This document shows, piece after piece, positions 1,058 through 20,982 of a stretch of DNA of 64,000 nt. The notes beneath the pieces were generated by a model. It was not told the DNA's origin and did no database searches. It saw only the letters and a program-made list of their open reading frames with translations. The translations under genes and the position numbers were made by a program. Origin of the DNA: Peptoniphilus asaccharolyticus DSM 20463 (GTDB lineage: Bacteria > Bacillota > Clostridia > Tissierellales > Peptoniphilaceae); the NCBI RefSeq assembly GCF_900176115.1, contig NZ_FWWR01000011.1, positions 1 to 64,000 on the forward strand, written 5' to 3'. How positions within the stretch are numbered: position 1 is the stretch's first letter; each line of letters starts with the position of its first letter.

Positions 1058-4000
1058 TTGATAGATTGTAATTTTTTTGGGTTGCCAATTGTATATGAAG
1101 ATGGAGAGGAAATAATTCTTCCTATAAATAAGGTAAGCGCTCTACTATATTATGTATTGATTAAAAAGGCTGTTAGTAGAGAAGAACTAAGTGGTATGCT
1201 TTGGTGTGATTCTAGTGAACAAAAAGCTAGAACCAGCCTTAGAAATGCGCTGCATAAAATAAGACATTTGTTTAAAAATGAAATATTGGTGTCTAAAAAT
1301 AAATCTATCATTACTATTAATGAAGATTTAGACATAAACATTGACGTTGAATTATTTGAAAAGGACCCTGTAGGCAATATTGATAAGTATAAAGGTGAGT
1401 TTTTAAAGGGGTTTTATTTAAAAGAAGTAATAGAATTTGAAAACTGGATGACTGAGTCAAGAGATTACTACAGAGAGACTTTTATAGAAGTAATCATCAA
1501 AAAAATGGAAGAAGATTTTGAAAACGAAAAGTTTGAAGAATTGGAACAAGATGCCAAAAAGTTATTGAAAATTGATAAATATAATGAAGAAGCATATTTA
1601 TATTTATTCAAATACTATCAATTAAATGAAAGAATTGACAAGATTATAAACGGATATTATGAGCTACAGGAATTGTTAGAAAATGACTTAGGTGTTTCAC
1701 CATCGGAAGAGCTTACTAAAATATATAAGGATTCATTGAGTTTAATTAACGAGAAAAAAATGGACAAGAAGACTAATGAGTCTGCATTTTTTGGTAGAAA
1801 CTATGATAAGGAAGTAATTCAAAAGCAAATAGATGCATTTAAACGAGGTGATGATTTTAAATCTGTATTGGTTTGTGGAGAAGCAGGAATAGGAAAGAGT
1901 GTACTGAAAAAAGAAATAATGAATGCCAATTCAGATATAAAATTTTTTGGAGCTGATTGTCTTAAGGTGGAACAAGTTTTTGCATACTCGCCATGGGTTA
2001 AGATAATTTCATCTATAGAGCAAGAATTCCATGCAAATGGAGTTGAAAGACCTTTGCTCTGGGAAGATCTTATAAATAATTTTTTCTTCCTTGGGAAAAA
2101 CGCCTATCAGCCTAAGTCTAAAATTTTAGAAAACAGAGAGAACTTTAGCACTAATCTAATTTACAATGCAATTATTAACGCAATTGATAAATTATCAGAA
2201 AGTGGTCCTGTAATATTAACTATAGAAGATATTCAATGGGCAGATAGTTTGAGCATAAAGCTTTTGACTAATTTATTGCTTAAAAAGAATAAAGGTGTGT
2301 TCTTATTACTTACTAAATCTAGTGAGTATACTATTTGCGAAGAAAATATAATCTTTACATTAAAAGATATAAATAAAATTGAATATATAGAACTGTCCAA
2401 ATTCAGTAGAAAAGAAGTTGGATTGATTTGTAAAAAGCTTATAAATAAAAAAATAGATGAGGCTGAAATTGACGATATATATTTTAAGTCAAAAGGAAAT
2501 GCATTTTTCTTAAATGAATATATACAACTCTATAACAACAAACAAAAAGGTGTGTTGGAAAATTCAAAAATTCAAGCAATTCTTTTTGAAAAATTTTCTA
2601 TGCTTAAAGACACTGAACGAAAGGTTTTAGAAATAGCATCAGTATTATATGAAAATGTAAATGTAGATTTAATATTAAAAGTTTTAAATCTAAACGCTTT
2701 TGAGGTAATAGATTGTATAAATTCACTCATAAAATTAAATATATTGGAACAGAGAGAGGGGAATGGCACAACTCAAATAAGTTTCGCTTATTCTGCATAT
2801 AAAGACTACGTATATAATAGTATAAATGATTACTCAAAAGAGATTATGCACAATGAAATAGGCCAGATGTTAGAAAAAGATTTGGTAACAGGTAATAACA
2901 CTATAACTACATATGTAAGGCTTAAATATCATTTTGAAAGAGCTAAAAATCAAGCTAAAAAAGTAAAATATGAAATATATATGCTAAGTTATTACCTAAA
3001 CTTCACTCATGAAATATTTCCGAGCTTGAATGATAGTGAATTGAGTAAACAAGTTAAACTATATATAGACAATGCAAAAGTTACAGAGTTGATAGAGCGA
3101 ATAGAGTTAGAAATAAATGAGATAAAGGCAAAGGAAAATAGCAAAGAGGATTTGAAAGATATTTTAAAATCTGAGCTGTTGTTTTTGTACTGTAAAGGAA
3201 GATATTTTATCAGAGAAGGAAACTATGTAAATGGTGTAAAAATCATGAACAGAGTTATCCAGTTTGCAGAACAGATGAAGGATTATAAAATAGCCCTTAA
3301 CGGACATAAGCAAATGGCGATTTATTCAATCCAGATAATAAATCAAGAGCTTATGTTAAAGCACCTTATTGCCGGAATAGAAGTTGCAAAAGCTATAGGT
3401 GATAATTTAGAACTTGGGATATTTTATAGATTGTATGGTGTCTATCACATGAACAATGGAGATTTTGAAAAAGCAGAAGAATTGTTTATGCATTCAATAG
3501 ACACATTTGAATATGAAGGAATATTGGAAGGAACAAATTCTATCAGTACAGCTGCAAATTACAATTACATTGGAGAAATAAGACGTACTCAAGGAAAATT
3601 GGATGAGGCACTGGAATATTTTGAAAAATCAATTGAATTGTGTGAAAATACTGAAGCATCTTGCCTATCAATCTTCTATATAAATGCAGGCAAAACACTT
3701 TTCTTAAAGGGAGAAGTGTTTGCAATGAAAGATTTATTCTACAAAGCTGAGAGTATAATAAAGAGATTTGACTCATATTGGAAAAAACCTGTTTTAGAGG
3801 CATACTTGGCATTAGTTAATTTCTTAGATGAAAGATTTAATGAATCAGCTAAATTATTGAAGAATGCATTGCAAGAAGTTAAAACTATAAACAATTCTAG
3901 AGATATCGGATACATATACTTTATACAGACAATAATATGCTACATAATAAAAAGAGATGAAGCAGGATTTGATAAAGATATGGAAAGTATATTAGTAGAG

Positions 4001-4099
4001 TCTTACGACATATACTATTATAATGCGATTAAATATTTGGATAAGTATAGAGATGCAGCGGAGATAGAATACTTAAAAGCTAACATTAAATTTGACTAA
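1058..4099 (+). CDS. SARP/AfsR-like STAND transcriptional regulator (copy 1)
   Basis: A 1013-residue multidomain regulator. Residues about 1-90 look like the winged-helix DNA-binding domain of SARP proteins. Residues about 95-240 resemble the bacterial transcriptional activation domain, ending near the typical LGVSPSEEL. A P-loop ATPase follows, with Walker A GEAGIGKS near 273 and Walker B ILTIEDIQWAD near 386. The C-terminal half is helical and TPR-like, for example YNYIGEIRRTQGKLDEALEYF. The start is TTG 1058, five bases after AGGAGG at 1047-1052. Its stop lies just before the GlmL-like gene. A paralog of the same length and layout is encoded at 17955-20963. By family knowledge it activates promoters with 11-bp direct repeats; the effector is unknown. 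Confidence 0.85.
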   Translation: MIDCNFFGLPIVYEDGEEIILPINKVSALLYYVLIKKAVSREELSGMLWCDSSEQKARTSLRNALHKIRHLFKNEILVSKNKSIITINEDLDINIDVELFEKDPVGNIDKYKGEFLKGFYLKEVIEFENWMTESRDYYRETFIEVIIKKMEEDFENEKFEELEQDAKKLLKIDKYNEEAYLYLFKYYQLNERIDKIINGYYELQELLENDLGVSPSEELTKIYKDSLSLINEKKMDKKTNESAFFGRNYDKEVIQKQIDAFKRGDDFKSVLVCGEAGIGKSVLKKEIMNANSDIKFFGADCLKVEQVFAYSPWVKIISSIEQEFHANGVERPLLWEDLINNFFFLGKNAYQPKSKILENRENFSTNLIYNAIINAIDKLSESGPVILTIEDIQWADSLSIKLLTNLLLKKNKGVFLLLTKSSEYTICEENIIFTLKDINKIEYIELSKFSRKEVGLICKKLINKKIDEAEIDDIYFKSKGNAFFLNEYIQLYNNKQKGVLENSKIQAILFEKFSMLKDTERKVLEIASVLYENVNVDLILKVLNLNAFEVIDCINSLIKLNILEQREGNGTTQISFAYSAYKDYVYNSINDYSKEIMHNEIGQMLEKDLVTGNNTITTYVRLKYHFERAKNQAKKVKYEIYMLSYYLNFTHEIFPSLNDSELSKQVKLYIDNAKVTELIERIELEINEIKAKENSKEDLKDILKSELLFLYCKGRYFIREGNYVNGVKIMNRVIQFAEQMKDYKIALNGHKQMAIYSIQIINQELMLKHLIAGIEVAKAIGDNLELGIFYRLYGVYHMNNGDFEKAEELFMHSIDTFEYEGILEGTNSISTAANYNYIGEIRRTQGKLDEALEYFEKSIELCENTEASCLSIFYINAGKTLFLKGEVFAMKDLFYKAESIIKRFDSYWKKPVLEAYLALVNFLDERFNESAKLLKNALQEVKTINNSRDIGYIYFIQTIICYIIKRDEAGFDKDMESILVESYDIYYYNAIKYLDKYRDAAEIEYLKANIKFD

Positions 4100-4109
4100 G
4101 GAGAGGAAA

Positions 4110-5468
4110 GTGGATTGTTATCTATTAGTGGACTTTGGTAGCACTTTTACAAAGTTGACGCTTGTATCTAAGAATAAAGCAGAAATAATAGCTAAATCAA
4201 AATCATATACAACTGTAGAAACTTCCGTAATAGAAGGTTATGAAAAAGCTAAAAGTGAAATGTTTAGAGATTTATCTTTCGAAGATATAAATATTGTAAA
4301 GACTTTATGCTGTTCTTCAGCAGGTGGAGGTCTTAAAATTGTAACAATAGGAATAACTCCAAGCTACACAGTAGAGGCTACAAAGAGAGTGGTCATGGGA
4401 GCAGGAGGAAGAATTGTAGGCAGTTTTAGTTACTATTTAACGGATGAAGATGTTGAGGAAATAAAAAAAATAAATCACGACATAATTTTACTTTCCGGAG
4501 GGACGGAAGGCGGAAACAAATCTTATATTTTAAAAAATGCACAGAAGCTAGCGCAGCACAAGGTTGAGAAACCTGTGATAGTGGCGGGGAACTCCTATGC
4601 AAGGGATGAAGTTGAAGCAATATTTAAAGAATATGGGTTAAAAGCTGTTTACACTGAAAACATTATGCCGGATACAGATAAGATAAATCCTTATGTAGCA
4701 AAAGAAGTAATTCGTGAAATTTTTATGGCTCTAATAATAAGAGCTAAGGGGATGGATTTGGTAGCTGAAAATATTGGCGAGATACTTATGCCAACTCCTA
4801 CGGCTGTATTAAAGGCAGCTAGTCTATTATCGTTGGGGACACAAGAGACTAAAGGGCTTGGGGAACTTATGGTAGTGGATGTTGGAGGAGCGACTACTGA
4901 TATACATTCTATTTCTGATCCTATAGTGGATAGGACTTATAAACAAGATGGACTTGAAGAGACGGTGGAGAAGAGAACTGTTGAAGGAGATCTTGGGATG
5001 AGATATTCTGCTGTTGGGGTTTACCAGTCTGCAAGTGAAAGATTATTAAGTCAACCTAATGCAGAAGAGAGATGCATAAAGAGATTCGCACAGACATCTT
5101 ATTTACCGGAGAGTGAAGATGAAAAGAAATTTGACGAATTAATTGCTTCTGAATGCGTTTCTATAGCTGTTAAAAGACATGCCGGAACTACTAGAAGAGG
5201 CTATATGAATGGTCAAGATATAACTATTCAAAACGGAAAAGATTTAAGAAATATAAAATATATTGTAGGTACAGGTGGAGTTATAATAAATTCTGTTAAC
5301 TATAAAAATATAATTTCGTCATGTATAATAGAGGAAAAAAATAAATTAACACCTAAAAATCCCGGTGTATTGATAGATAAAAGGTATATTTTATCTGCAA
5401 TGGGACTACTTAGTACAGTAGATAGTGAGTTAGCGTTAAAAATAATGCTTGAAAATATTAATGCTTAA
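4110..5468 (+). CDS. GlmL/MutL-type ASKHA ATPase (copy 1)
   Basis: This resembles GlmL/MutL, the actin-like ATPase found with B12-dependent glutamate mutase and presumed to act as its reactivating chaperone. The N-terminus carries the phosphate-1 loop LLVDFGSTFTKLTL. A second loop reads MVVDVGGATTDIHSI, and a glycine motif VGTGGVI lies near the C-terminus. Start GTG 4110 is preferred because AAGGAG sits at 4098-4103; an in-frame TTG at 4092 would overlap the upstream gene and lacks such a site. No glutamate mutase gene is in the window, so its client is unknown. A paralog is at 16580-17926. It probably forms a unit with the upstream regulator. Confidence 0.8.
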   Translation: MDCYLLVDFGSTFTKLTLVSKNKAEIIAKSKSYTTVETSVIEGYEKAKSEMFRDLSFEDINIVKTLCCSSAGGGLKIVTIGITPSYTVEATKRVVMGAGGRIVGSFSYYLTDEDVEEIKKINHDIILLSGGTEGGNKSYILKNAQKLAQHKVEKPVIVAGNSYARDEVEAIFKEYGLKAVYTENIMPDTDKINPYVAKEVIREIFMALIIRAKGMDLVAENIGEILMPTPTAVLKAASLLSLGTQETKGLGELMVVDVGGATTDIHSISDPIVDRTYKQDGLEETVEKRTVEGDLGMRYSAVGVYQSASERLLSQPNAEERCIKRFAQTSYLPESEDEKKFDELIASECVSIAVKRHAGTTRRGYMNGQDITIQNGKDLRNIKYIVGTGGVIINSVNYKNIISSCIIEEKNKLTPKNPGVLIDKRYILSAMGLLSTVDSELALKIMLENINA

Positions 5469-5494: not shown

Positions 5495-5535
5495 AAGAGA
5501 TAATGGCTTAAAACTGAGTTATTATCTCTTTTTAT
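5495..5535 (+). terminator. Rho-independent terminator after GlmL-like gene
   Basis: A perfect 10-bp stem (AAGAGATAAT at 5495-5504 with ATTATCTCTT at 5521-5530) is followed by a T-rich run. It separates the regulator unit from hutU. Confidence 0.8.
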
Positions 5536-5603
5536 TTGATATAAACTGTTATTTATTTTAAAGAAAAAATTTTTTAAAAATTTTTGAAATCGAAATTAAT
5601 GTA

Positions 5604-5633
5604 AACGTTATATTAACGTTGCGTCTATATAAT
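5604..5633 (+). promoter_or_regulatory. hutU promoter with SARP-like 11-bp repeats
   Basis: AACGTT occurs at 5604-5609 and 5615-5620, exactly 11 bp apart. The downstream repeat ends 7 bases before a TATAAT at 5628-5633. Repeats on one helix face placed about 8 bp upstream of the -10 are the arrangement described for SARP activators. No consensus -35 is present. The sites and spacing are seen directly; regulation by either local SARP protein is inferred. Confidence 0.6.
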
Positions 5634-5695: not shown

Positions 5696-7450
5696 ATGAA
5701 CGGAGAACACGGATTATATTACAGAGAAAACCCTGAGATACTTTACAAAGTAACTGCTCAAGGCGGTGGATTAAAAGATACTGACACTCTAAGATGTAAA
5801 GGATGGAGACAAGAAACAATTCTTAGAATGTTAGAGTTTAATATGGAAAATGCTGAAATTCCTGAACTACTTGTTATCTACGGTGGTAATGGTAAAGGAG
5901 CAAGAAACTGGGAATCTTACTGGGCAATAGTTGACGCACTAAAGAACTTAGAAGATGACGAAACTTTAGTTGTTCAATCAGGTATGCCTGTTGCAATATT
6001 TAAAACACATAAAGAATCTCCAACAGTAGTAATGGCAACTACAAACATCATGCAAGCTACTTGGGAAAGATTCTACGATTTACAAGACAAGAACTTAACT
6101 ATATTCGCTCAATACACAGCAGCTCCATGGGAATACATAGGAACACAAGGTGTTATCGAAGGAACATTCGAAACTCTATCAGCAATCGCAATCAAAGCTT
6201 TCAATGATGATTTATCAGGAAAGATTTACATGACAGCTGGTGTTGGTGGTATGGGAACAAACCAAACATGGGCTATGAAGATGCATGGCGGAGTTTGCTT
6301 AATAGTAGATGCTAATAAGAAAACTCTTGAAAAGAGAATTGAAAAAGACTATCTTGATGTAATTGCTCCATCAATGACAGAAGCTATCGAAATGGCAAAA
6401 GATTACGCAGCAAGAAAAGAACCTATCTCAATTGGATTTGTAGGCAATGCAGCAGATGCATACGAAGAAGTTCTAAAGAGCGACTTCAGACCTGACATAT
6501 GTTCAGAAATGTGTCCATGCCATGATCCTATCTCTTATATCCCATCAGGATATACTCCAGAAGAAGCTGACCAACTAAGAATTGATGACAGAGAAAAATA
6601 TCTTGAATTAGCAAGAGAAACAATGAAACGTCAATTAGCAGCAATGATCGCTTTAAAAGCAGATGGCGTAGAAGTATTTGAATATGGTACATCTATTAGA
6701 AAAGAATGTATGGATGCTGGATTCCCAAGAGAAGAAGCAATGAAGATCGAAGGATTCGTAGCTGCATACTTAAGACCACTATTCTGCGAAGGAAGAGGAC
6801 CTTTCAGATGGACTTGTCTATCTCGTGACCCTCAAGACTTAATTGAAACTGATGATATAGCACTTGAAATTTGCAAAGGCGATAAACTTGTTGAAAGATG
6901 GATTACACTTGCAAGAAAGAACTTACCAATAGAAGGTATGCCAGCAAGAGTTTGCTACATGGGATTTGGTGAAAGAAAGAAATTCGGTCTAGCAATTAAC
7001 CAAGCTATTAAAGAAGGAAGAATTAAAGGTACAGTTGCTTTCTCAAGAGATAACTTAGACTCTGGTTCAATCGTTAACCCAACATTTGAATCTGAAAACA
7101 TGCCAGATGGTGGAGATTACATCTCTGACTGGCCATATCTAAACGGTCTATTAAACTGTGCAGCAGGATGTGACTTGATAGCAATTCAAAGTAACTACTC
7201 AATGGGTGAAGCAGTTCACACTGGTGTTACTATGATAGCTGATGGTACTGAAGAAGCTGACAGAAGACTTGCAGCAGCTCTTACAGTTGACTCTGGTATT
7301 GGTGTAATACGTCACGCTCAAGCTGGATATGAAACAGCTAAAGCAGTTGCAAACGGAAAAGGTCTTTACACTACAGATTCAATTAAAGTGCCACTATGGT
7401 GGAAATCAGCTGACCAAGTAACATTTGGACCAGAAGGAATGTATAGATAA
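5696..7450 (+). CDS. hutU: Urocanate hydratase
   Basis: Urocanase adds water to urocanate to give imidazolone propionate, using tightly bound NAD+. The 584-residue protein carries the glycine-rich segment GVGGMGTNQTWAMK near 181 and family blocks SRDNLDSGSI near 450, SDWPYLNGLLN and IGVIRHAQAGYE. In the Pseudomonas enzyme the equivalent of DSGS is DCGS and a glycine/histidine loop follows; here that loop reads QSNYSMGEA, which I associate with the Firmicutes branch. Start ATG 5696 follows AAGGAGG at 5681-5687. It heads the long histidine unit and is followed by a hairpin that could damp downstream transcription. Confidence 0.95.
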   Translation: MNGEHGLYYRENPEILYKVTAQGGGLKDTDTLRCKGWRQETILRMLEFNMENAEIPELLVIYGGNGKGARNWESYWAIVDALKNLEDDETLVVQSGMPVAIFKTHKESPTVVMATTNIMQATWERFYDLQDKNLTIFAQYTAAPWEYIGTQGVIEGTFETLSAIAIKAFNDDLSGKIYMTAGVGGMGTNQTWAMKMHGGVCLIVDANKKTLEKRIEKDYLDVIAPSMTEAIEMAKDYAARKEPISIGFVGNAADAYEEVLKSDFRPDICSEMCPCHDPISYIPSGYTPEEADQLRIDDREKYLELARETMKRQLAAMIALKADGVEVFEYGTSIRKECMDAGFPREEAMKIEGFVAAYLRPLFCEGRGPFRWTCLSRDPQDLIETDDIALEICKGDKLVERWITLARKNLPIEGMPARVCYMGFGERKKFGLAINQAIKEGRIKGTVAFSRDNLDSGSIVNPTFESENMPDGGDYISDWPYLNGLLNCAAGCDLIAIQSNYSMGEAVHTGVTMIADGTEEADRRLAAALTVDSGIGVIRHAQAGYETAKAVANGKGLYTTDSIKVPLWWKSADQVTFGPEGMYR

Positions 7451-7553: not shown

Positions 7554-8858
7554 ATGGAAATTTTGTTGAATCCGGTAATCATATCGGTAATTGTACTATC
7601 TGTTTTGTGTTTACTTAAACTGCCAGTTTTATTGGCTCTATTGGTATCTGCATTAATTGCAGGATTGTCAGCGGGAATAAGTTTGACAGACTCTATTGGA
7701 ATATTTGTTGGTGGTATGGGTGGAAACGCTAACACAGCTCTTAGTTATATTCTACTTGGAGCATTAGCATACACAATAAATAAGACTGGAGCAGCTGATA
7801 TATTAGCTAGAAAGATCGCATCAGTAGTAAAGGGAAATAAATTCACATTGGCAATTATAATAACTCTAACAGCAATGGCTTCAGGGACTATTATACCTAT
7901 ACATATTGCCTTTATACCAATTTTAATTCCACCGCTACTATCTTTAATGAACAAGATGAAGATGGATAGAAGAATGCTTGCAATATGTTTTGGATTTGGA
8001 TTAAAAGCACCATACATAACTATTCCAATAGCATACGGAGCAATATTCCATGGAATTATTAAGGACTCAGTTAATGCAGCGGGACTTAATATTGGATTAT
8101 CTGACATTTGGAAATCAACTTGGATGGCAGGTTTAGCTATGTTTGTTGGATTGGTGCTAGGACTTATTTACTTCTCTAAAGACAGAACTTATGTAGACAA
8201 AGACGAAGAAAATAACGAAGGATTAGAAAAAGCGATAGTAGTAGAGACAAAACACTGGTTGACATTGGCAGCAGGAGTTGTTGCTTTAGTTGTTCAACTT
8301 ATGACAGAGTCTTTACCATTAGGAGCTTTAGCAGCACTTACACTTTTAATTGCTACTAGAGTTATAAAATGGAATGACATACAAGAAATGTTAGAAGGCG
8401 GAATTAAGTTAATGGGATTCATAGCCTTTGTAATGTTAATAGCATCAGGATATGCAACAGTAATCAGAGAGAGTGGAGCAGTAGACAGTTTAGTAGAAAG
8501 TGCATTTGCTCTATTAGGCGGTTCAAAATTAGCTGGTTCATTCACAATGATAACATTAGGTTTAATAATAACTATGGGTATAGGTACTTCTTTTGGTACA
8601 GTACCAGTTATAGCGGCTATATATGTACCTTTAGCTGTAAAACTCGGTTTCTCTCCAGCCGCTATAATATTTATGATAGCAGTTGCAGCAGCTTTAGGAG
8701 ATGCAGGATCTCCAGCTTCTGACACAACTCTTGGACCAACAGCCGGACTAAATGCTGACGGTCAACACGAACACATTTGGGATACATGCGTTCCACAATT
8801 TGTTTGCTACGATATTCCATTGTTAATTGTTGGTATAATTTGGCCATTATTTATTTAA
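7554..8858 (+). CDS. Na+/H+ antiporter-family permease (copy 1), likely histidine transport
   Basis: A 434-residue polytopic membrane protein of the Na+/H+ antiporter (YuiF-like) family. Family-typical blocks are GGMGGNANTALSYILLGA near the N-terminus, IPIHIAFIPILIPPLL, GIGTSFGTVPVIAAIYVPL, and GDAGSPASDTTLGPTAGL near the end. It starts at ATG 7554 behind AAGGAGG and ends 10 bases before hutI. Position between hutU and hutI suggests import of histidine or exchange of a pathway intermediate, but substrate cannot be read from sequence. Two paralogs occur in the window, at 21376 (intact) and 40270 (frameshifted). Confidence 0.88.
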   Translation: MEILLNPVIISVIVLSVLCLLKLPVLLALLVSALIAGLSAGISLTDSIGIFVGGMGGNANTALSYILLGALAYTINKTGAADILARKIASVVKGNKFTLAIIITLTAMASGTIIPIHIAFIPILIPPLLSLMNKMKMDRRMLAICFGFGLKAPYITIPIAYGAIFHGIIKDSVNAAGLNIGLSDIWKSTWMAGLAMFVGLVLGLIYFSKDRTYVDKDEENNEGLEKAIVVETKHWLTLAAGVVALVVQLMTESLPLGALAALTLLIATRVIKWNDIQEMLEGGIKLMGFIAFVMLIASGYATVIRESGAVDSLVESAFALLGGSKLAGSFTMITLGLIITMGIGTSFGTVPVIAAIYVPLAVKLGFSPAAIIFMIAVAAALGDAGSPASDTTLGPTAGLNADGQHEHIWDTCVPQFVCYDIPLLIVGIIWPLFI

Positions 8859-8868
8859 GGACTAGAAA

Positions 8869-10086
8869 ATGAAAAACTTACTTTTAAAAGACTGCAAAAG
8901 TATATTGACAATTAGGGAAGATGCCGATGATTTAATCGGCATCATCTCTAATAAGTCTATATTAATTGAAGACGAAAGAATAAAAAGAATAGCTGACTAC
9001 TCTAAATTAGACGTAGATTCTAAAATAGAAGTTATAGATTGTAGCAATAAAATAGTTATGCCGGGATATGTGGATAGTCATACACACTTGATATTTGGCA
9101 AGAGTAGAGTTGATGAGTATGCTGCATCTTTGACTATGTCTGCTGAAGATGTAAAAAAAGCAGTTGGTTTAGTTGGCTTAGCTTCATCAATGTACTCAAC
9201 AAAGAATGCTACAGATGAAGAGCTATTACAAACTTCATTAAAAAAACTTAATAGAATGCTTAAAACAGGTACAACTACAGTTGAAATAAAGTCTGGATAT
9301 GGCATAGATAAAGAAAATGAGCTAAGACAATTGAGGATTATAAAAGAAATAAAAAAACATACTCCTCAAACAATACTAAGTACATACCTTGGAGCTCATT
9401 ATTTTGACGTGGAAATGGGAAAAGAAAACTATATCCAATACATGATAGATGAGGTTATGCCTGTAGTAAAAGAAGAAAACTTAGCTGAGTTTTGTGACGT
9501 GTGGTGTGATGATGGATATTATACAGCGGAGGACTCAAGGAAGATTTTATCAGCAGGTCTAGAATTTGGAATGCTTCCTACACTACATACTGAATGCTAT
9601 TCTGCAATTGGTGGAGCGAGAGTTGGGGCAGAACTAAAGGCAGCTAATGTAGGACATTTAAATTATTTAGAAGATGAAGATATAGATGTTTTAAGAGATA
9701 ATGGAGTTGTTGGAATATTGATTCCGGGAACAGATTTTTCTGTTAAACACCACAGACCTTTTAATCCTAGACCTATGATAGATAAGGGACTAACAATTGC
9801 TATAGCTACAAATCTAAATCCGGGAAATTGGATAGAATCAATGCCTTTGGCAATGGCAATGGCTTGTAGAAATCATGGAATGACACCGGAAGAAGCCATA
9901 AGAGCGGCGACACTTGGTGGAGCTAAAGCTCTTAAGATAGAAAAAGATTATGGCTCAATTGAGGAAGGTAAATTTGCAGATATTCAAATACTTGAATCAG
10001 ATAGCTATAAAAATTGTATCTATAAGATAGGCGTAAATGAAGTTGATAAAGTAATTAAAAAAGGAAAAATTGTTTTTGAAAATTAG
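8869..10086 (+). CDS. hutI: Imidazolonepropionase
   Basis: This amidohydrolase opens imidazolone propionate to N-formimino-glutamate. The metal motif SHTHLIFG is near residue 68, and the family block TTTVEIKSGYG, the GAH motif (YLGAHYF), TLHTEC and VGHLNYL are all present. The usual metal-ligand aspartate of the TDFNPG block is replaced: residues around 315 read ATNLNPGN. That is an odd change at a key site, so this may be an unusual branch of the family or an altered enzyme. The gene is tightly packed between the permease and a cyclodeaminase, which supports the pathway assignment. Confidence 0.88.
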   Translation: MKNLLLKDCKSILTIREDADDLIGIISNKSILIEDERIKRIADYSKLDVDSKIEVIDCSNKIVMPGYVDSHTHLIFGKSRVDEYAASLTMSAEDVKKAVGLVGLASSMYSTKNATDEELLQTSLKKLNRMLKTGTTTVEIKSGYGIDKENELRQLRIIKEIKKHTPQTILSTYLGAHYFDVEMGKENYIQYMIDEVMPVVKEENLAEFCDVWCDDGYYTAEDSRKILSAGLEFGMLPTLHTECYSAIGGARVGAELKAANVGHLNYLEDEDIDVLRDNGVVGILIPGTDFSVKHHRPFNPRPMIDKGLTIAIATNLNPGNWIESMPLAMAMACRNHGMTPEEAIRAATLGGAKALKIEKDYGSIEEGKFADIQILESDSYKNCIYKIGVNEVDKVIKKGKIVFEN

Positions 10087-10097
10087 GAGGATATCAA

Positions 10098-10652
10098 ATG
10101 GACTATAAAGATATTATTGAACTTATTTTAGATGAAAATGACTTTACAGTAGGTGGGGGATCATCATCAGCTATAGCGGGGGCTTTTGGATGCGGTTTAA
10201 TGGGAATGGTAATAAATCTATCTAAAGGAAAAGATTATGGATATTCAGATGAAAAATATGACGAACTTGCAGCAGAACTAAAAGAATTAAAAGCTAAATT
10301 CTTACAGGGAGCAGTTAATGACAATGAAGCATATATGCTAATTGTAAATGCTTACAAGCTACCAAAAGCAACAGACGAAGAAAAAACTGCAAGAAAAGCA
10401 GCGATACAAAATGCAGGTATAAGAGCGGCTGAAGTTCCTATGTCAAATGCAAAACTAAATAAGAGACTTTTAGAAATAGGAGAAGGACTTCTTACAAACT
10501 CAAACCCAGCTTGTGGAACTGATTTAAACGCTGGCGTTGAATTTGCAAAGATGGGAATCAAAGCAGGTAAAGAAAATGTAGAAGTTAATTTACCACTTAT
10601 AAAAGACGAAGAAGTTATTGCAAGATTTAAAAAAGATTTAGAAAGTCTATAA
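10098..10652 (+). CDS. Formiminotetrahydrofolate cyclodeaminase-family protein (copy 1)
   Basis: A 184-residue protein of the FTCD_C/FchA family, which turns 5-formimino-tetrahydrofolate into methenyl-tetrahydrofolate plus ammonia, or acts as a cyclohydrolase. The glycine-serine segment GGGSSSAIAGAFGCGLMGMV at residues 19-38 is the family hallmark, and the C-terminal part has LLTNSNPACGTDLNAGV. The start follows AGGAGG at 10086-10091. It is shorter than the second copy at 15889 (208 residues). The two may differ in cyclodeaminase versus cyclohydrolase activity, which sequence alone does not settle. Confidence 0.88.
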   Translation: MDYKDIIELILDENDFTVGGGSSSAIAGAFGCGLMGMVINLSKGKDYGYSDEKYDELAAELKELKAKFLQGAVNDNEAYMLIVNAYKLPKATDEEKTARKAAIQNAGIRAAEVPMSNAKLNKRLLEIGEGLLTNSNPACGTDLNAGVEFAKMGIKAGKENVEVNLPLIKDEEVIARFKKDLESL

Positions 10653-10743
10653 AATATTATTTATATATTAAAAATTAGAAACGTAATATTATTTAATCGA
10701 ATTATAAATAATTAAAGATGCTTAATTTGAAGGAGGATTTAAA

Positions 10744-12279
10744 ATGGGAAAAGTAATAAAAATTAATGGGAATGATTTAACGATAGAAGATGTGGTTCAA
10801 ATTGCAAGATTCGGTGCAAAAGTTGAAATAGATGAAGCTCAAAAACAAGAAATATTAAAATCAAGAGAATATGTTGAAGCAGCTTTAGCAAGTGGACAAG
10901 CTATATACGGAATCAATACAGGATTTGGAAAATTCTCAACAGTGTCTATATCAGAAGAAGAATTAGATTTATTACAAAAGAACTTAATTTATTCAGATGC
11001 TTGTGGAGTTGGCGATCCATTCGACACAGAAATCGTAAGAGCTATGATGGTTTTAAGAGCTAACTCAATTTGTAAGGGATTCTCCGGAGTTTTAATGACA
11101 ACTGTAGAATGCTTGGTAAATATGTTGAATGAAGGAGTTCATCCAATAGTTAGATCTAAGGGTTCTGTAGGTTCTTCTGGAGACTTGTGTCCACTAGCTC
11201 ACATGGTTCTACCTATGATAGGTGAAGGCGAAGCAGAATATAAAGGTGAAGTTCTTAGCGGAGCGGAAGCTATGAGAAGAGCTGGATTAAAACCAATTAC
11301 TTTAAAAGCTAAAGAAGGTTTGGCTCTTATAAACGGAACTCAAGCTATAATGGGTAATGCAGTAATGGCTACATATGATGCTGAAAAATTACTTAAACAA
11401 GCGGACATCGTAAGTTCTCTAACTGTAGATGCATTGGGCGGAATAATAGATGTATTTGATGAAAGAATAAATTTAATCAGACCTCATCAAGGACAAATAG
11501 ACACAGCTGAAAATATGAGAAGACTTTTAGCAGAATCTAAAAACGTAACTAAACAAGGTGAAGTTAGAATGCAAGATTCTTATAGTTTAAGATGTATACC
11601 ACAAATTCACGGGGCATCTAGAATAGCTTTTGAATATGTAAAAAAAGCAGTTGAAGTTGAAATCAACTCAGTAACAGATAACCCACTAATTTTCCCAGGA
11701 GAAAATGGAGCTTGTATATCAGGTGGAAACTTCCACGGTCAACCAATAGCTATAGCAATGGATACTCTTGGAATATTAGTGTCTGAAATAGCTAACGTAT
11801 CTGAAAGAAGAATAGAAAAAATGGTAAACCCTGCACTTTCTCACGGACTACCAGCTTTCTTAGTAAAACACGGCGGAATAAATGATGGATTTATGATTCC
11901 TCAATATGTAGCAGCAGCTTTAGTTTCTGAAAACAAAGTATTAGCTCACCCTGCATCTGTTGACTCAATTCCAACTTCTGCAAACCAAGAAGACCACGTA
12001 AGTATGGGTACTATTGGAGCTAGAAAAGCAAGACAAATAGTAGACCATGCACAACATGTAATTAGCATCGAGCTTATGTGTGCAGCACAAGCAGCAGACT
12101 TTGGAGCAGCTGATAAGTTAGGTTTAGGAGCAAGAGAAGCTTACAAAGTGCTTAGAGAAAATGTAACATTTATGGAAAATGATAGAATATTCTATCCTGA
12201 CATGGACAAATCATTTGAAGTAGTTAAATCAGGCGAATTATTAGATAGAGTAGAAGCAGTTGTTGGAGAATTAAAGTAA
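10744..12279 (+). CDS. hutH: Histidine ammonia-lyase paralog 1 (variant active site)
   Basis: An aromatic amino acid lyase of 511 residues, expected to release ammonia from histidine to form urocanate. Family blocks YGINTGFG, SYSLRCIPQIHGA, GNFHGQP and NQEDHVSM are present. Two departures from textbook HutH are clear. The tripeptide that cyclises to the MIO cofactor is Ser144-Ser145-Gly146 (GSVGSSGDLCPL) rather than Ala-Ser-Gly. The histidine of the usual LSHAAG block is Asp85 (YSDACGVG). The second copy at 22810 keeps both usual residues. Start ATG 10744 follows AAGGAGG. The 91-base gap upstream is AT-rich and may hold a promoter. Confidence 0.88.
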   Translation: MGKVIKINGNDLTIEDVVQIARFGAKVEIDEAQKQEILKSREYVEAALASGQAIYGINTGFGKFSTVSISEEELDLLQKNLIYSDACGVGDPFDTEIVRAMMVLRANSICKGFSGVLMTTVECLVNMLNEGVHPIVRSKGSVGSSGDLCPLAHMVLPMIGEGEAEYKGEVLSGAEAMRRAGLKPITLKAKEGLALINGTQAIMGNAVMATYDAEKLLKQADIVSSLTVDALGGIIDVFDERINLIRPHQGQIDTAENMRRLLAESKNVTKQGEVRMQDSYSLRCIPQIHGASRIAFEYVKKAVEVEINSVTDNPLIFPGENGACISGGNFHGQPIAIAMDTLGILVSEIANVSERRIEKMVNPALSHGLPAFLVKHGGINDGFMIPQYVAAALVSENKVLAHPASVDSIPTSANQEDHVSMGTIGARKARQIVDHAQHVISIELMCAAQAADFGAADKLGLGAREAYKVLRENVTFMENDRIFYPDMDKSFEVVKSGELLDRVEAVVGELK

Positions 12280-12290
12280 AGGAGAGAATC

Positions 12291-13172
12291 ATGAGCAAAG
12301 TATTGATGGCAGAAGTAAATATAAGTGAAGGTACAGACCTTAGCGTTGTAGAAAAAGTAAAAGAAGCTTTTTTATCAGTTGATGGAATAGAAGTAATAGA
12401 TATAGATTCTAACGCAGACCACAACAGAACAGTTTTCACTTATAAAGGTGAACCGGAAAATGTTTTAGAAGCAACTAAAAAATTAGCTGCAAAAGCTGTT
12501 GAATTAATCGACATGACAAAACACAAGGGTTCACATCCAAGAATAGGTGCAGTAGACGTAGTTCCTTTTATTCCAGTAAGAGAAATCACAACAGAAGAAG
12601 CTGTAGTAATAGCTAAAGAATTTGGAAAATACTTAGGAAGCCTAGGAGTGCCAGTTTACTTCTATGAAGATGCTCAAGAAAGAGAATATAGAAAAGCTCT
12701 ACCAAAGATTAGAAAAGGACAATATGAAGCTTTAGAAGAAAGAATGAAAGATGAAGAATGGTATCCAGATGAAGGACCTAAAGAATTCAATCCAAAAGCT
12801 GGGGCAACTGTTACAGGAGCGAGATTCCCATTAGTTGCATTCAACATCAACTTAGATACTGAAGACCTTGAGATAGGAAAAGAAATAGTAAAATCTGTAA
12901 GAGCAGCTGCTGGTGGATACACTTATGTAAGAGCTATAGCACTTAGCCTTGAAGAAAAGAAGCAAGTTCAAGTTTCCATGAATATGATTAACTATGAAAA
13001 GACTCCTATCCACAGAGTGTTCGAAACCATTAAATCAGAAGCAAGCAGATACAATGTAAATATAGTAGATACAGAATTGGTAGGACCAGTGCCTGTTTAT
13101 GCGATAAGAGATGTGCTTGATTTCTATTTAAGAATCTCAAAAGAGTTCTCAGTTGACCAAATATATTCATAA
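12291..13172 (+). CDS. ftcD: Glutamate formimidoyltransferase (copy 1)
   Basis: This 293-residue protein matches the formiminotransferase half of FTCD, which moves the formimino group from formiminoglutamate to tetrahydrofolate, releasing glutamate. The conserved block [18 protein letters not shown] carries the catalytic histidine region, and the C-terminal subdomain starts near QVQVSMNMINYEKTPIHRVF. The separate cyclodeaminase genes provide the other half. It begins 11 bases after hutH and is probably the last gene of the hutU unit. About half of its residues appear identical to the copy at 13302. Confidence 0.92.
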   Translation: MSKVLMAEVNISEGTDLSVVEKVKEAFLSVDGIEVIDIDSNADHNRTVFTYKGEPENVLEATKKLAAKAVELIDMTKHKGSHPRIGAVDVVPFIPVREITTEEAVVIAKEFGKYLGSLGVPVYFYEDAQEREYRKALPKIRKGQYEALEERMKDEEWYPDEGPKEFNPKAGATVTGARFPLVAFNINLDTEDLEIGKEIVKSVRAAAGGYTYVRAIALSLEEKKQVQVSMNMINYEKTPIHRVFETIKSEASRYNVNIVDTELVGPVPVYAIRDVLDFYLRISKEFSVDQIYS

Positions 13173-13214
13173 TTAAAAAATAAGTCAAAATAAATTTTCA
13201 AAATAGAATATCTT

Positions 13215-13285
13215 TAGACGTTTTATAGATAGGAAAATGTTAGACTCGCATTGTAAAAGTCTAGAAGAAGTCTAGACAGGTCTAG
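13215..13285 (+). promoter_or_regulatory. Array of TAGAC-type repeats upstream of second ftcD
   Basis: TAGACG (13215-13220) and TAGATA (13226-13231) lie 11 bp apart. A TAGACT at 13241-13246 sits where a -10 box would be expected. GTCTAG then repeats at 13259, 13270 and 13280, with pitches of 11 and 10 bp. The last copy abuts the ribosome binding site GGAGG of ftcD. This is dense, phased repetition and very likely a regulator binding region. Confidence 0.5.
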
Positions 13286-13301
13286 GAGGTATGACTAAAT
13301 T

Positions 13302-14195
13302 ATGAAAAGAGTAATGTGTATTCCTAATTATTCAGAAGGAAGAGACTTAGAAAAAGTAGATAAAATCGTAGAATGTTTTAGAGCGAAAGAAAATGTAAAG
13401 CTAGTAGATTACCAAGCAGACAAGGATCACAACAGAACAGTTGTTGAAGTTATTGGTGAACCTGAAGCTGTAATCAAAGCAGTTATTGAATCTGTAAAAG
13501 TAGCTCAAGAAGTTATAGACATGACTCAACACGAAGGAGCTCACCCAAGAATGGGAGCTGTTGACGTTGTTCCTTTCGTTCCAATTACAGAAGTTACTAC
13601 AGAAGACTGTGTAGAATATGCTAAAGAAGTTGGTAAGGCAATAGGAGAACTAGGAATTCCAGTTTACCTATATGAAGATGCAGCTACAACTCCTGGAAGA
13701 CAAAACCTTGCAAAAGTTCGTAAAGGACAATATGAAGGATTCTTCGAAAAAATTAAAGAAGAAGAATGGAAACCTGATTTTGGACCACAAGAAATGAACG
13801 CAAAGAGTGGTGCTACTGCAGTTGGAGCAAGATTCCACCTTGTAGCATTTAACGTAAACTTAAATACAGATAAAGTAGAAATTGCTGATGCAATTGCTAA
13901 AAAAGTAAGACACATCGGTGGTGGACTTAGATTTGCTAAGGCAATAGGACTTCCACTTGAAGAAAGAGGACAAGTTCAAGTATCTATGAACCTTGTAAAC
14001 TTCGAAAAAACAAGAATTTACCAAGCGCTTGAAATGGTAAAATCTGAAGCTAAGAGATATGGCGTAACTGTATACGGAACAGAAATAATCGGTATGGTTC
14101 CACTACAAGCTCTAATAGATTCAGCAGCATACTACATGCAAGTTGAAGAATTTAGTGCTGAACAAGTTATAGAAACACTATTAATTGAGGAGTAA
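13302..14195 (+). CDS. ftcD: Glutamate formimidoyltransferase (copy 2)
   Basis: A 297-residue formiminotransferase-domain protein with the catalytic-region block [18 protein letters not shown] and the second-half block [20 protein letters not shown]. It heads the unit ftcD-fhs-cyclodeaminase and has its own phased repeat region upstream. Its codon use looks richer in optimal codons than copy 1, with many GAA, GTA and GCT codons, suggesting high expression. Pairing with formate-tetrahydrofolate ligase points to channelling the formimino carbon to formate for ATP. The stop at 14195 lies 7 bases before fhs. Confidence 0.92.
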
Positions 14196-14202
14196 TAAAA
14201 AG

Positions 14203-15879
14203 ATGACAGAATTTTTAACAGATATAGAGATAGCAAATTCCATTGAAATGGAACCAATAGTTGACGTAGCTGAAAGAGCTGGTCTTAAAGCTGATGATTT
14301 AGAACTTTATGGAAAATATAAAGCTAAAATATCTCTTGATGCTATTCACGAATTAGACAAAAAAGAAGATGGTAAATTAGTCCTTGTAACAGCTATAACT
14401 CCAACTCCAGCAGGAGAAGGAAAGTCAACTGTATCAATTGGTCTTTCTCAAGGACTTAACAAAATGGGTAAAAACTCAGTTGTAGCTCTAAGAGAACCAT
14501 CTCTAGGACCTGTATTTGGCGTTAAAGGTGGAGCAGCAGGTGGTGGATATTCACAAGTAGTTCCTATGGAAGATATCAACCTTCACTTCACTGGAGACCT
14601 TCACGCAATGACAGCTGCTAACAACTTATTATCAGCTCTTATTGACAACCACATTCACCAAGGTAATGCTCTAAGAATAGACGCTAGAAACATTACTTGG
14701 AAGAGAGTTATCGACATGAATGATAGATCTATCAGAAACATTGTAATCGGAATGGGTGGAAAAGCTTGCGGATTTACAAGAGAAGATCACTTCATGATTA
14801 CTGTAGCTTCTGAAATCATGGCAGCTCTTTGTTTAGCTAGTGGTTTAACTGACCTTAAAGAAAGACTTGCTAGAATGATCGTAGCTTACAACCTAGATGG
14901 AGAACCTGTAACAGCAGGACAATTAGAAGCTCAAGGAGCTATGGCTATGCTTCTTAAAGATGCTATTAAACCAAACATTGTTCAAACTCTTGAACATACT
15001 CCAGCTCTTATCCACGGTGGACCATTCGCTAACATCGCTCACGGATGTAACTCATTAATCGCTACAAAATTAGGACTTAAACTTTCTGATTACCTTGTAA
15101 CAGAAGCTGGTTTCGGTGCTGACCTTGGAGCAGAAAAATTCTTCGATATCAAATGTAGACTTGGTAACCTTAAACCAGATGCAGTAGTAATCGTAGCTAC
15201 TATCAAAGCACTTAAGATGCACGGTGGCGTAGATAAGAAGAACCTAAAAGAAGAAAATGTAGAAGCGTTAGAAGCAGGATTTGCAAATCTTGGACGTCAT
15301 ATTGAAAACGTAAAGAAATTCGGTCTTCCTGTAGTTGTTGCAGTTAACAAATTTGCATTCGATACAGAAGCTGAAGTTAATAAATTAATCGAAAAATGTG
15401 CTGAATACGGAGTAGAAGTTTCACTTTCTGACGGATGGGCAAAAGGTGGAGAAGGTACTTTAGACTTAGCTGAAAAAGTTGTTAGAGCTTGTGAACAAGA
15501 AAACAACTTCCACTACCTATATGATGTAGAAGCTTCAATCCCTGAAAAACTTAACACTATTGTTAAAGAAATCTACAGAGGAGCTAAAGTTACTCTTACA
15601 GCAGCAGCTAAAAAACAAGTTAAGAAATTAGAAGAACTTGGATTAGACAAAATGCCAATCTGTATGGCTAAAACTCAATTCTCATTCTCAGATGATAAGA
15701 ATGCAGTAAACGCACCAGAAGGATTTGAAATCACAGTTCAAAACGTAAGAGTTTCTGCAGGTGCAGGATTCATCGTTTGTGAAACTGGTGACATCATGGT
15801 TATGCCTGGTCTTCCAAAAGTTCCAGCAGCTAACAAGATGGACGTTGATGAAAACGGTAAAATGGAAGGTCTATTCTAA
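14203..15879 (+). CDS. fhs: Formate-tetrahydrofolate ligase
   Basis: This cytosolic ligase couples formate, tetrahydrofolate and ATP to formyl-tetrahydrofolate. In histidine fermenters it can run backward to gain ATP. The 558-residue length is typical. The P-loop [15 protein letters not shown] is near residue 65, followed by [20 protein letters not shown] and LHFTGDLHA. Start ATG 14203 is chosen because GAGGAG sits at 14187-14192; an upstream in-frame TTG at 14185 would place this site inside the gene. It overlaps nothing and is followed after 9 bases by a cyclodeaminase, a natural order for passing one-carbon units. Confidence 0.96.
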
Positions 15880-15888
15880 GGAGGAAAC

Positions 15889-16515
15889 ATGTTAAAAGAA
15901 CTAACAGTAGCAGGATTCGTAGCAGAAACATCTTCAGATTCTCCAGCTCCAGGCGGTGGATCAGTTTCAGCTCTTGCAGCAGCACAAGCAGCAGCTCTTC
16001 TAGGAATGGTTGCTAACTTAACTGTAAAGAGCAAAAAATATGAAGAAGTTCATGAAGAAATGCAAAAATACGCTGAAGAATTAAAAGAACTTGAATTAGA
16101 TTTTGTAGAAGACATTGACAGAGACTCAAATTCTTTCAACGGCGTTATGGCAGCATTCAAACTTCCAAAAGAAACTGAAGAAGAAAAAGCTATCAGATCA
16201 AAAACTATTCAAGAAGAATACAAAAAAGCAGCAAGTGTACCTCTAAACGTAGGTCTAAAAACTCTTAAAATATTAGACTATGCAGAAGTTTTAGTTGAAA
16301 AAGGAAACTCTAACGCAATCACTGACGTAGGAGTTGGTCTATTAAACTTAAAGCTTGCTATCAGAGGAGCTTTCTACAATGTAAAAATCAACCTTGGTTC
16401 AATCAAGGATGAAGAATTCATCGCAGAAACTAAAAAGCAAATGGCTGAAGCTCTTGAAAAAGTTGAAGTAGCTACAGCACCTCTACTTGAAAAAATAGAA
16501 GCTGCAATAGAATAA
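15889..16515 (+). CDS. Cyclodeaminase/cyclohydrolase-family protein (copy 2)
   Basis: A 208-residue FTCD_C/FchA-family protein with the hallmark SPAPGGGSVSALAAAQAAAL near residue 18 and a helical remainder. It would make methenyl- or formyl-tetrahydrofolate between the upstream formiminotransferase and formate-tetrahydrofolate ligase. It is longer and more alanine-rich than copy 1. A strong terminator follows, although the GlmL-like gene starts only 64 bases later in the same direction. Placement next to fhs recalls FchA, but the exact reaction is not certain. Confidence 0.9.
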   Translation: MLKELTVAGFVAETSSDSPAPGGGSVSALAAAQAAALLGMVANLTVKSKKYEEVHEEMQKYAEELKELELDFVEDIDRDSNSFNGVMAAFKLPKETEEEKAIRSKTIQEEYKKAASVPLNVGLKTLKILDYAEVLVEKGNSNAITDVGVGLLNLKLAIRGAFYNVKINLGSIKDEEFIAETKKQMAEALEKVEVATAPLLEKIEAAIE

Positions 16516-16531
16516 TAAAAAGCAATAAATA

Positions 16532-16556
16532 AGAGGGGTATATCCCCTCTTTTTGT
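16532..16556 (+). terminator. Terminator after one-carbon unit
   Basis: AGAGGGG at 16532-16538 pairs with CCCCTCT at 16544-16550 around a 5-base loop, followed by TTTTTG. Confidence 0.85.
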
Positions 16557-16579
16557 TTAAAGATTTTTAAAGGTGAAGT

Positions 16580-17926
16580 ATGAAATATTTACTTGTAGAT
16601 ATAGGTTCAACATATACAAAGCTAACACTCGTGGATGCAGAAAAAAGAGAAATAATAGCTAAAGAAAAAGACATAACCACTATAAAAACATCTGTGATGG
16701 ATGGATTTAAAAATGCTCTTGGCAAAATGGAAAATAAAATTGGCAAAGTGGAATACGATAAAGCCATAACTTGTTCATCAGCAGCCGGTGGTCTTAAGAT
16801 GGTGGCTGTAGGACTTGGGAAAAATTTGACAGCAGAAGCAGCTAAGAGATCAGCACTTGGGGCGGGAGCAAGAATGTTAAAAACTTTTTCTTATGAGTTG
16901 GACTTATCAAAAGTTAGAGAAATAGAAGAGTTAGACCCTGATATAATTTTGCTTTCAGGCGGGACTAACAATGGAAATAAATTTAACATAATCCACAATG
17001 CAAATATGCTTGCGAATTTAAATATAAAAGCGCCGATTGTAATAGCAGGAAATGAACAAGTTGCTGAAGAAGTAGCGGAAATTCTCTGTGATTTTGAAAC
17101 ATACACTACAGAAAATGTAATGCCAACGGTAAATGAATTAAATGCTGACCCAACAAGAAGAATTATCAGAGATATATTTATGCGTAGGATAATTTTAGCT
17201 AAGGGATTGTCTGAATATAGAGAAAAAGTTGGAGAAGTATTGATGCCAACTCCAGATTCAGTACTTCAAGCGGCAAGACTATTATCGGTTGGGACAGAAA
17301 ACGAAGCAGGTCTTGGAAATTTAATTTTAGTGGATGTTGGGGGAGCGACAACAGATGTCCATTCTATAGGACATGGTCTTCCAACCAACAATGAAGTTAG
17401 ATTTGAAGGACTTAAAGAAGCTTTTGACAAGAGAACTGTCGAGGGAGATCTTGGAATGAGATATTCTGCAATAAGTTTGTATGAGTCAGTTGGGGAAGAG
17501 GAACTCAGAGGATATTTTGAAGCAGATTACTTAGCTGAATGTAAAAAGAGAAGCGAAGACATAATGATGGTTCCAAAGACAGAAGAAGACAAGAAAATTG
17601 AAGCATCAATTGCCAAAGCATGTGTAAACCACTCAATAGAAAGACACGTTGGAAAACTTAGAAAAGAATATTCAAATGGAAGATATATATACTATCAAAG
17701 TGGCAAAGACTTATCTGAGTTCAACACAATTATAGGAACAGGTGGAGTATTAGTTCATTCAGAGGATCCAAAATTTATTTTGGAAACAAAAAAGGATTCT
17801 CTTTATCCGGAAAAGCCAATTCAATATTTAGATAGGGAATATATTTTATCAGCAATGGGACTTTTGGCAACACAGGACAAAGATTCGGCACTTAGCATAA
17901 TGAAAAATTGCATACAAAAATTATAA
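16580..17926 (+). CDS. GlmL/MutL-type ASKHA ATPase (copy 2)
   Basis: A 448-residue paralog of the protein at 4110. It shows the N-terminal loop LLVDIGSTYTKLTL, the central loop ILVDVGGATTDVHSI, the shared block TVEGDLGMRYSA and the terminal DREYILSAMGLL. By family it should act as an ATP-dependent reactivator of a B12 mutase or a related radical enzyme. No mutase gene is near. It lies between the formate unit and a convergent SARP regulator, so the pair regulator plus GlmL-like ATPase occurs twice in this island. A ribosome binding site AAAGGTG precedes ATG 16580. Confidence 0.8.
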   Translation: MKYLLVDIGSTYTKLTLVDAEKREIIAKEKDITTIKTSVMDGFKNALGKMENKIGKVEYDKAITCSSAAGGLKMVAVGLGKNLTAEAAKRSALGAGARMLKTFSYELDLSKVREIEELDPDIILLSGGTNNGNKFNIIHNANMLANLNIKAPIVIAGNEQVAEEVAEILCDFETYTTENVMPTVNELNADPTRRIIRDIFMRRIILAKGLSEYREKVGEVLMPTPDSVLQAARLLSVGTENEAGLGNLILVDVGGATTDVHSIGHGLPTNNEVRFEGLKEAFDKRTVEGDLGMRYSAISLYESVGEEELRGYFEADYLAECKKRSEDIMMVPKTEEDKKIEASIAKACVNHSIERHVGKLRKEYSNGRYIYYQSGKDLSEFNTIIGTGGVLVHSEDPKFILETKKDSLYPEKPIQYLDREYILSAMGLLATQDKDSALSIMKNCIQKL

Positions 17927-17927
17927 A

Positions 17928-17956
17928 GGGGCTATTTTACAACAGCCCCCTTTTTT
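17928..17956. terminator. Bidirectional terminator between convergent genes
   Basis: GGGGCT (17928-17933) pairs with AGCCCC (17944-17949), with a T run on the plus side and an A-rich flank giving Ts on the minus side. It ends both the GlmL-like gene and the convergent regulator. Confidence 0.8.
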
Positions 17957-20963: not shown

Positions 20964-20982
20964 TTTTTCACCTCTCAAGTCA

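Follow-up and report, generated by a model that had tools for sequence, protein, structure and literature searches.

A conserved direct-repeat box at the hutU promoter of Peptoniphilus asaccharolyticus, a candidate operator for an AfsR-like regulator

The promoter of hutU, the urocanate hydratase gene of Peptoniphilus asaccharolyticus, carries two direct repeats located in the place of the -35 element and followed at a fixed distance by a -10 element. This box, TAAACG-N5-TTAACG-N9-TATAAT when read in the units that are conserved (positions 5602-5633, + strand), recurs in relatives that harbor the same regulator gene. It is highly probable that this element serves REG1, an AfsR-like regulator of the "large SARP" type, as operator-promoter at the hut operon; REG1 would act as an activator and would also regulate its own expression. 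Nutrient use thus seems to be controlled here by a type of activator whose best-known role is in antibiotic production. The window referred to below is the whole stretch of DNA that was analysed, i.e., 64,000 nucleotides at the start of a contig.

The gene island

The window opens with a second box, TTAACG-N5-TTAACA-N9-TAAAAT (38-69, + strand), which precedes the ORF85-REG1-GlmL1 operon; the same layout is found in four further genomes. The first gene of this operon, ORF85 (85-1041, +), encodes a conserved protein whose orthologues precede REG1 in 6/6 REG1 genomes and which may be a partner or sensor of REG1. It has no Pfam or NCBIfam match, and its model (pLDDT 68.4, modest) gave no Foldseek match at E <= 0.001; a weak RNase-H/ASKHA-like resemblance of the N-terminal part of the model is not used in the conclusions. 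REG1 (1058-4099, +) encodes an AfsR-like regulator (winged helix by predicted fold, BTAD, AAA/NOD and TPR), likely an activator, and the last gene is GlmL1, of the MutL/GlmL family (4116-5468, +). A terminator-like hairpin (5495-5530, +), found in a terminator scan, separates GlmL1 from the hutU promoter.

The hutU gene (5696-7450, +) is followed by the rest of the hut cluster (7554-17926, +), composed of genes for a transporter, hutI, a cyclodeaminase, hutH, two formiminotransferases, formate-THF ligase, a second cyclodeaminase and GlmL2, where the formiminotransferases, the ligase and the second cyclodeaminase were named by eye. The cluster, presumably read as one transcript, ends with GlmL2 (MutL family, mutase accessory; 16580-17926). 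The opposite strand then encodes REG2 (17955-20978, -), a second AfsR-like regulator and paralogue of REG1 (36% identity), beyond which are found a second transporter gene and then a second hutH. A REG2-type box, CAGACG-N5-TAGACG (21174-21190, +), is located between REG2 and the second transporter gene.

Several further observations concern the island and its relatives. The two GlmL genes (4116-5468 and 16580-17926) adjoin the regulators. The second transporter gene starts about 200 nt past the REG2-type box, which leaves a long leader (21174-21375); an Rfam scan of window positions 1-40000 returned three tRNAs only and nothing in this leader. Outside the island, the window genome also harbors another hutU, of the long type (34% identity; G000:C2:6119-7678). 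Broken frames are seen in the P. indolicus REG1 and REG2 genes (L033 6001-9038 and L160 11357-14362) and in GlmL1 of G136 (L158 6067-6944), and reflect either decay or errors of draft assembly.

Composition of the hutU promoter

A preliminary description of this promoter had reported two AACGTT copies at a pitch of 11 bp, the second ending 7 bases before TATAAT, and no -35 element. The copies are found at 5604-5609 and 5615-5620 (11 bp from start to start), TATAAT is found 7 bases past the second of them (5628-5633, +), and a promoter scan returned no two-hexamer sigma-70 promoter ending at 5633. The choice of AACGTT as the repeat unit had to be revised, i.e., relatives keep a direct repeat T(T/A)AACG (TWAACG) that is shifted by 2 bases. 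AACGTT as a palindromic operator was rejected because its final TT is not kept in relatives. In the revised units, the upstream repeat TAAACG (5602-5607, +), which can be aligned in relatives, occupies the -35 place, while the downstream repeat TTAACG (5613-5618, +), 11 bp from the first, is present in 5/5 aligned hutU promoters and is followed 9 bp later by the -10 element. The leader is about 60 nt long, and no terminator was found in it by the scan.

By count within the window, the AACGTT pair without the -10 element is not striking; with up to 2 mismatches it has 4 matches vs 2.97 expected, and 39/100 shuffles gave an equal number. With the -10 element included, this earlier-stated motif scores 18/18 at the window hutU promoter, and 0/1000 shuffles scored as well.

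Conservation at two sets of promoters

The earlier-stated motif (AACGTT pair plus -10; maximum score 18) was fixed before the relatives were scored. A search upstream of hut genes in relatives, as proposed in the preliminary description, revealed that the repeats, their pitch and their distance from the -10 element recur at five hutU promoters, i.e., those of the window, P. indolicus (G001), P. mikwangii (G098), Anaerosphaera multitolerans (G099) and G136. The lack of conservation that had been named as grounds for abandoning the idea was not observed, and the box was found also at REG1's own operon in five genomes (window, G098, G099, G100 and G136). All readable promoters, 5/5 for hutU and 5/5 for ORF85-REG1 with the window counted in each five, carry the box; left out were the P. 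indolicus REG1 operon promoter, which reads N, and the G100 hutU promoter, which is absent from the assembly (hutU is a fragment).

The scores (out of 18) at the hutU promoters were 18 in the window genome (G000), 16 in G001, 14 in G098, 15 in G099 and 14 in G136, and those at the ORF85 promoters were 15 (G000, where the scan covered only 102 bases as compared to 250 for the others), 16 (G098), 14 (G099), 16 (G100) and 14 (G136). For each of these ten promoters, 0 to 22 of 1000 shuffles scored equally well or better. The hutU promoter of G030, a genome without REG1, scored 10, which was equalled or exceeded by 935/1000 shuffles.

When pitches of 6-25 and spacers of 3-16 were compared, using a pattern that had been refined on these same ten sequences, a pitch of 11 with a spacer of 9 was the sole combination filled by 10/10 promoters; the runner-up, likewise at pitch 11, was filled by 6/10. 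The identity is 90-92% in the hexamers and the -10 element, 36-40% in the spacers and 34-56% in the flanks. The first repeat is degenerate in two genomes (TAAACT in G136, ATAACG in G099). The repeats are 11 bp apart in all ten promoters, as expected of SARP target promoters (11 or 22 bp), and the -10 element is placed 9 bp after the downstream hexamer in all ten, where the SARP rule is about 8 bp. On the level of sequence, this conservation is stronger proof of the box than are the statistics of the window.

Promoter register

In the complex of AfsR with the afs box, which covers the -35 element and extends from -40 to -19, the repeats are 11 bp long and a protomer touches the initial 8 bp of each; T-38 and T-27 are required (PMC10936776). 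In SARP promoters in general, the 3' repeat lies about 8 bp from the -10 element and the upstream repeat over the -35 element (PMC10936776). If TATAAT is taken as -12 to -7, the hutU hexamers start at -38 and -27, and the downstream hexamer ends at -22, i.e., where the 8 bp contacted by AfsR end (PMC10936776).

An overlap with the -35 region is also possible for repressor sites, and the repeats could bind a repressor that blocks RNA polymerase, such that REG1 would repress hut. This alternative is very unlikely, as hutU has no -35 element to support unaided transcription and the register of the box equals that of AfsR, which is described as an activator (PMC10936776).

The REG1 protein

The preliminary description had noted two SARP/AfsR-like proteins in the island. 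This assignment holds for the BTAD, which is found in both REG1 and REG2, the only two BTAD matches in the genome (E 0.001), but not for the Pfam winged helix, PF00486, which was matched in neither protein at E 0.001, nor in six REG1/REG2 N-termini at E 10. The BTAD of REG1 matches PF03704 with E 2.4e-9, above the cut-off, and a BTAD is found in 6/6 of the REG1/REG2 N-termini. C-terminal to the SARP-like part of REG1, AAA_16 and TPR_12 are found above the cut-off, as in large SARPs (AfsR type). According to the Pfam rule given in PMC10663231, a SARP is defined by PF00486 plus PF03704; because PF00486 is absent, REG1 is here called AfsR-like rather than filed as a SARP by that rule.

The REG1 N-terminus is predicted to have a SARP-like fold. 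A model of the first 245 residues, built from 6 sequences (mean pLDDT 78.5, pTM 0.51), gave AfsR (8k60, E 6.9e-8, TM 0.63, rmsd 8.3) and EmbR as the best structures in a Foldseek search. In VIA-align, AfsR reached Z 13.0 and 12.0 and EmbR 11.1, all three matches being longer than 210 residues; a Z of about 13 can, according to a warning of the tool, be attained by mostly helical models without kinship. The match with Z 13.0 spans 218 residues (model 1-232) and places a winged helix in the predicted fold. Unrelated TPR proteins reached Z up to 11.0, over the helical half of the model only, and VanR and CosR, both OmpR-type, reached 10.3 and 9.7 over REG1 residues 1-90.

In a profile search of the PDB with the REG1 N-terminus, AfsR was likewise the top match (E 5.3e-4), to which the BTAD part contributed most; the match in the winged-helix part was weak (4.4 bits). 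In our own reading of the alignments, W74, R87 and R94 of AfsR correspond to W49, R62 and R69 of REG1. In a tree of 25 regulators, from which R2_G001 (broken frame) and R3_G112 (only 131 residues without a stop) were left out, the six REG1 sequences form one group with a support of 0.992.

Co-occurrence of REG1, hutU type and box

Orthologues of REG1 were found in 6/130 family genomes (best segments 43-84%; search at E 1e-60). The one in P. indolicus, the nearest named relative found, is 84% identical to the window REG1 in the best segment. The hutU type of the window (74-100%) is found in the same six genomes and in G030, which harbors neither REG1 nor the box at this hutU. Upstream of the G030 hutU (L128), the sequence TGGCAC-N5-TTGCTT was seen by eye, and we take it to be sigma-54-like by its consensus. 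In G136, the box is present at both REG1 and hutU, which lie on two separate contigs and well away from the ends of these.

In the six REG1 genomes, the box was found 12 times with at most one mismatch, and 11 of these matches are at REG1 or hut-locus genes: five at hutU, five at REG1 operons and one at the G099 hut locus, the last of the twelve being in G001 outside hut loci. The additional G099 box follows hutH and precedes the start of an M20-peptidase-like gene, which matches an M20 gene of G100 at 70% over 40 residues. The stray box of G001 (C1:203600; L097 1501-1532) lies outside any hut locus, behind a gene that by eye is Crp/Fnr-like; some 430 nt beyond the box is the start of the next same-strand gene, which by eye is MATE-like. 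In 59 other genomes, the box was found 11 times with at most one mismatch. In G030:C4 (L188 5136-19728), a box with one mismatch lies before a Gate-domain transporter gene that is followed by a long-type hutU; the same same-strand run contains genes which by eye are CoA-transferase-like, acyl-CoA-dehydrogenase-like and ETF-like, and it ends in a BTAD gene.

The counts of loose matches are in themselves not informative. A scan of the window genome with 3 mismatches gave 8 matches vs 17 for the reversed pattern, and a one-mismatch scan of 61 genomes gave 15 vs about 79 (hand count). Because the reversed-pattern control exceeds the true count, the one-mismatch counts prove nothing alone and the evidence lies in the placement of the matches; we relied on exact patterns and on placement.

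Two half-sites across the order

A search of 249 genomes of the order for exact TTAACG boxes with a -10 element gave 6 matches (reversed pattern, 3), i.e., four at REG1 operons, one at the G099 hut-locus site and one in G156, where it is flanked by genes for an AfsR-like protein and an M20 peptidase. The two boxes of the window are not exact under this pattern and are hence not among the six. A second box is built from the half-site TAGACG. In its exact form, with TANNNT at spacer 9, it has 17 matches in 11/249 genomes, as compared to 0 for the reversed pattern. Ten of the 17 are located within about 1.5 kb of an AfsR-like gene, 4 of these with an intervening formate/nitrite-transporter gene; 9 of the ten precede formate-THF ligase and 1 is at a contig end. 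The remaining matches precede long-type hutU (6) or a formate/nitrite transporter (1). The gene families near exact matches were confirmed for a sample. By their placement, all 23 matches with either half-site lie by an AfsR-like gene or by a hut, formate or M20 gene. TTAACG boxes are seen before M20 peptidase genes in two families (L183 12741 and L207 7028), which suggests a peptide or amidohydrolase step in the regulon.

The narrow placement of these matches bears on the possibility that an OmpR/PhoB-type response regulator uses the box. Winged helices of the OmpR type also read hexamers at a pitch of about 11 bp, PhoP boxes are of the TTAACA kind with an 11-bp pitch, and the winged helices of VanR and CosR are among the fold matches of the REG1 N-terminus. 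A global response regulator should, however, have many sites, whereas there are only six exact ones in 249 genomes, confined to REG1 operons, the G099 hut locus and a single AfsR-like/M20 gap; on the basis of these sites, we regard this alternative as very unlikely.

In the window's family, the TAGACG box accompanies REG2-type genes: TAGACG-N5-TAGACG was sought in the shared upstream region at 14 family loci and fits at 11-12/12 positions in 6/14 (G000, G001, G002, G009, G098 and G099), at 10/12 in G124, G126, G024 and G007, and at 9/12 in G150, G151, G014 and G128, where 36-62 of 500 shuffles were as good as a 9-of-12 box. In G098, 531 nt separate the best box from the target gene downstream, and in G124, G126 and G024 the best box faces REG2. 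TATAAT is found 5 bases, not 9, after the box in G124 and G024, and the window REG2 box has a poor -10 element (AAAAAT) at spacer 9. For five more distant regulators (G046, G042, G058, G052 and G112), a scan of the stretch immediately upstream returned no box. With these off-spacings and weak boxes, the function of REG2 in the family is less certain than that in the order-level set. Because the family REG2 boxes have no exact repeats or no spaced -10 element, 0/17 of the exact TAGACG matches are in the window's family.

The recognition helices of the regulators differ in parallel with the half-sites. It reads S-L-R-N-(A/V)-(L/I)-H in six REG1 proteins, K-N-L-R-D-A-(L/I)-Y in ten regulators near TAGACG boxes and K-N-L-R-N-(A/V)-(L/I)-Y in 13 REG2 proteins, while the further TTAACG-linked regulators (G030 and G156) have S or F in place of the Y of the TAGACG group. 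This is a correlation between sequences, and the choice of half-site may be set by a few residues of the recognition helix.

It could be argued that REG2 rather than REG1 binds the hutU box, since the two are paralogues of the same domain composition and the island also contains the gene for REG2. This possibility is highly improbable given the pairing of REG2-type genes with TAGACG boxes at the six best-fitting family loci, the consistent difference between the REG1 and REG2 recognition helices, and the finding that genomes with REG2 but without REG1 (G002, G007, G009, G014 and G024) have no TTAACG box match. The likely partner of the hutU box is REG1. Taken across the order, we consider it rather probable that AfsR-like regulators constitute a dedicated system for histidine and formate/one-carbon catabolism in which two codes of the same geometry co-exist, i.e., TTAACG for REG1 and its kin and TAGACG for REG2 and its kin, with insulated paralogues in one island.

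Catabolite repression and chance

The CcpA cre consensus is TGWAARCGYTWNCW, and the window sequence TGTAAACGTTATAT fits 13/14 positions of this consensus; the genome also encodes a CcpA-like LacI protein (241 bits, cut-off 442). Nevertheless, a single cre palindrome would leave the second repeat and the fixed spacing to the -10 element unexplained, and in nine other promoters the cre match is at best 10-12/14 and away from the repeats. With TGWAARCGYTWNCW not being conserved at the promoter, a cre site for catabolite repression was rejected as the main explanation, and we find it exceedingly improbable. That the repeats arose by chance in AT-rich DNA, for which one may cite the AACGTT pair (up to 2 mismatches) being about as frequent in shuffles and the loose scans falling below the reversed pattern, is strongly disfavoured by the fixed-spacing conservation at two loci and by the order-wide placement of exact matches, and has a negligible probability.

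Proposed mechanism

With REG1 as the activator, two protomers would sit side by side on the two TWAACG direct repeats, one helical turn apart, so that the dimer occupies the place of the missing -35 element. From this position REG1 would keep RNA polymerase, together with sigma region 4, at TATAAT and thereby turn on hutU and the genes downstream. The same box before ORF85-REG1-GlmL1 would result in autoregulation. REG1 is probably kept inactive by the AAA(NOD)-TPR part as long as a signal is lacking, this signal being ATP plus an inducer, perhaps histidine or urocanate; histidine, urocanate and formate are candidate inducers on the basis of the identity of the target genes. The SARP-type switch for histidine fermentation suggested in the preliminary description is thus supported by conservation, predicted fold and register, with TWAACG replacing AACGTT as its unit.

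Relation to known systems

SARPs are known as actinobacterial antibiotic regulators, and both the promoter type and the protein type described here are already known from Streptomyces. In the literature searched, no report was found of their serving histidine fermentation and C1 genes within an order of Bacillota. In anaerobes of this phylum, the protein architecture and the promoter layout seem to control a primary fermentation route. Histidine, urocanate and formate are small metabolites with which one could probe what large SARPs did ancestrally and what induces their NOD-TPR part. The pair of paralogous half-sites allows shifts in SARP specificity to be studied in a comparison provided by nature, and regulon predictions are obtained for many poorly studied anaerobes.

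Control of hut in a member of Bacillota is known from Bacillus subtilis, where it is exerted by HutP and CcpA; here, the hutU leader is short and appears, from the scan, free of terminators. The nearest published histidine regulator in a Bacillota order is HisR, which controls histidine-related genes, including yuiF in Peptoniphilus (PMC9413887). Unlike REG1, HisR is a TrpR-family repressor with a 20-bp palindrome (PMC9413887). Its operator, cacTTTAnnnnnnTAAAgtg, was rejected for the hutU promoter, as the vicinity of hutU contains no match at 3 or fewer mismatches; at 3 mismatches, cacTTTAnnnnnnTAAAgtg has 5 matches in the window vs 8.56 expected from shuffles. The match closest to hutU lies at 22775-22794, just before the second hutH, and is not above chance.

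EmbR of Mycobacterium tuberculosis resembles REG1 by fold match only, i.e., in the winged helix and the BTAD, and its C-terminus is an FHA domain, where REG1 has AAA and TPR (PMC10936776). The closest likeness is to AfsR of Streptomyces coelicolor, which shares BTAD, NOD and TPR with REG1 and, by predicted fold, the winged helix, and whose afs box likewise consists of 11-bp direct repeats over the -35 element with T at -38 and -27 (PMC10936776). In contrast to AfsR, REG1 is found in a Bacillota anaerobe, where it would serve histidine catabolism instead of antibiotic regulation; its putative half-site is TWAACG, the box is found also at its own operon, and its winged helix is missed by Pfam.
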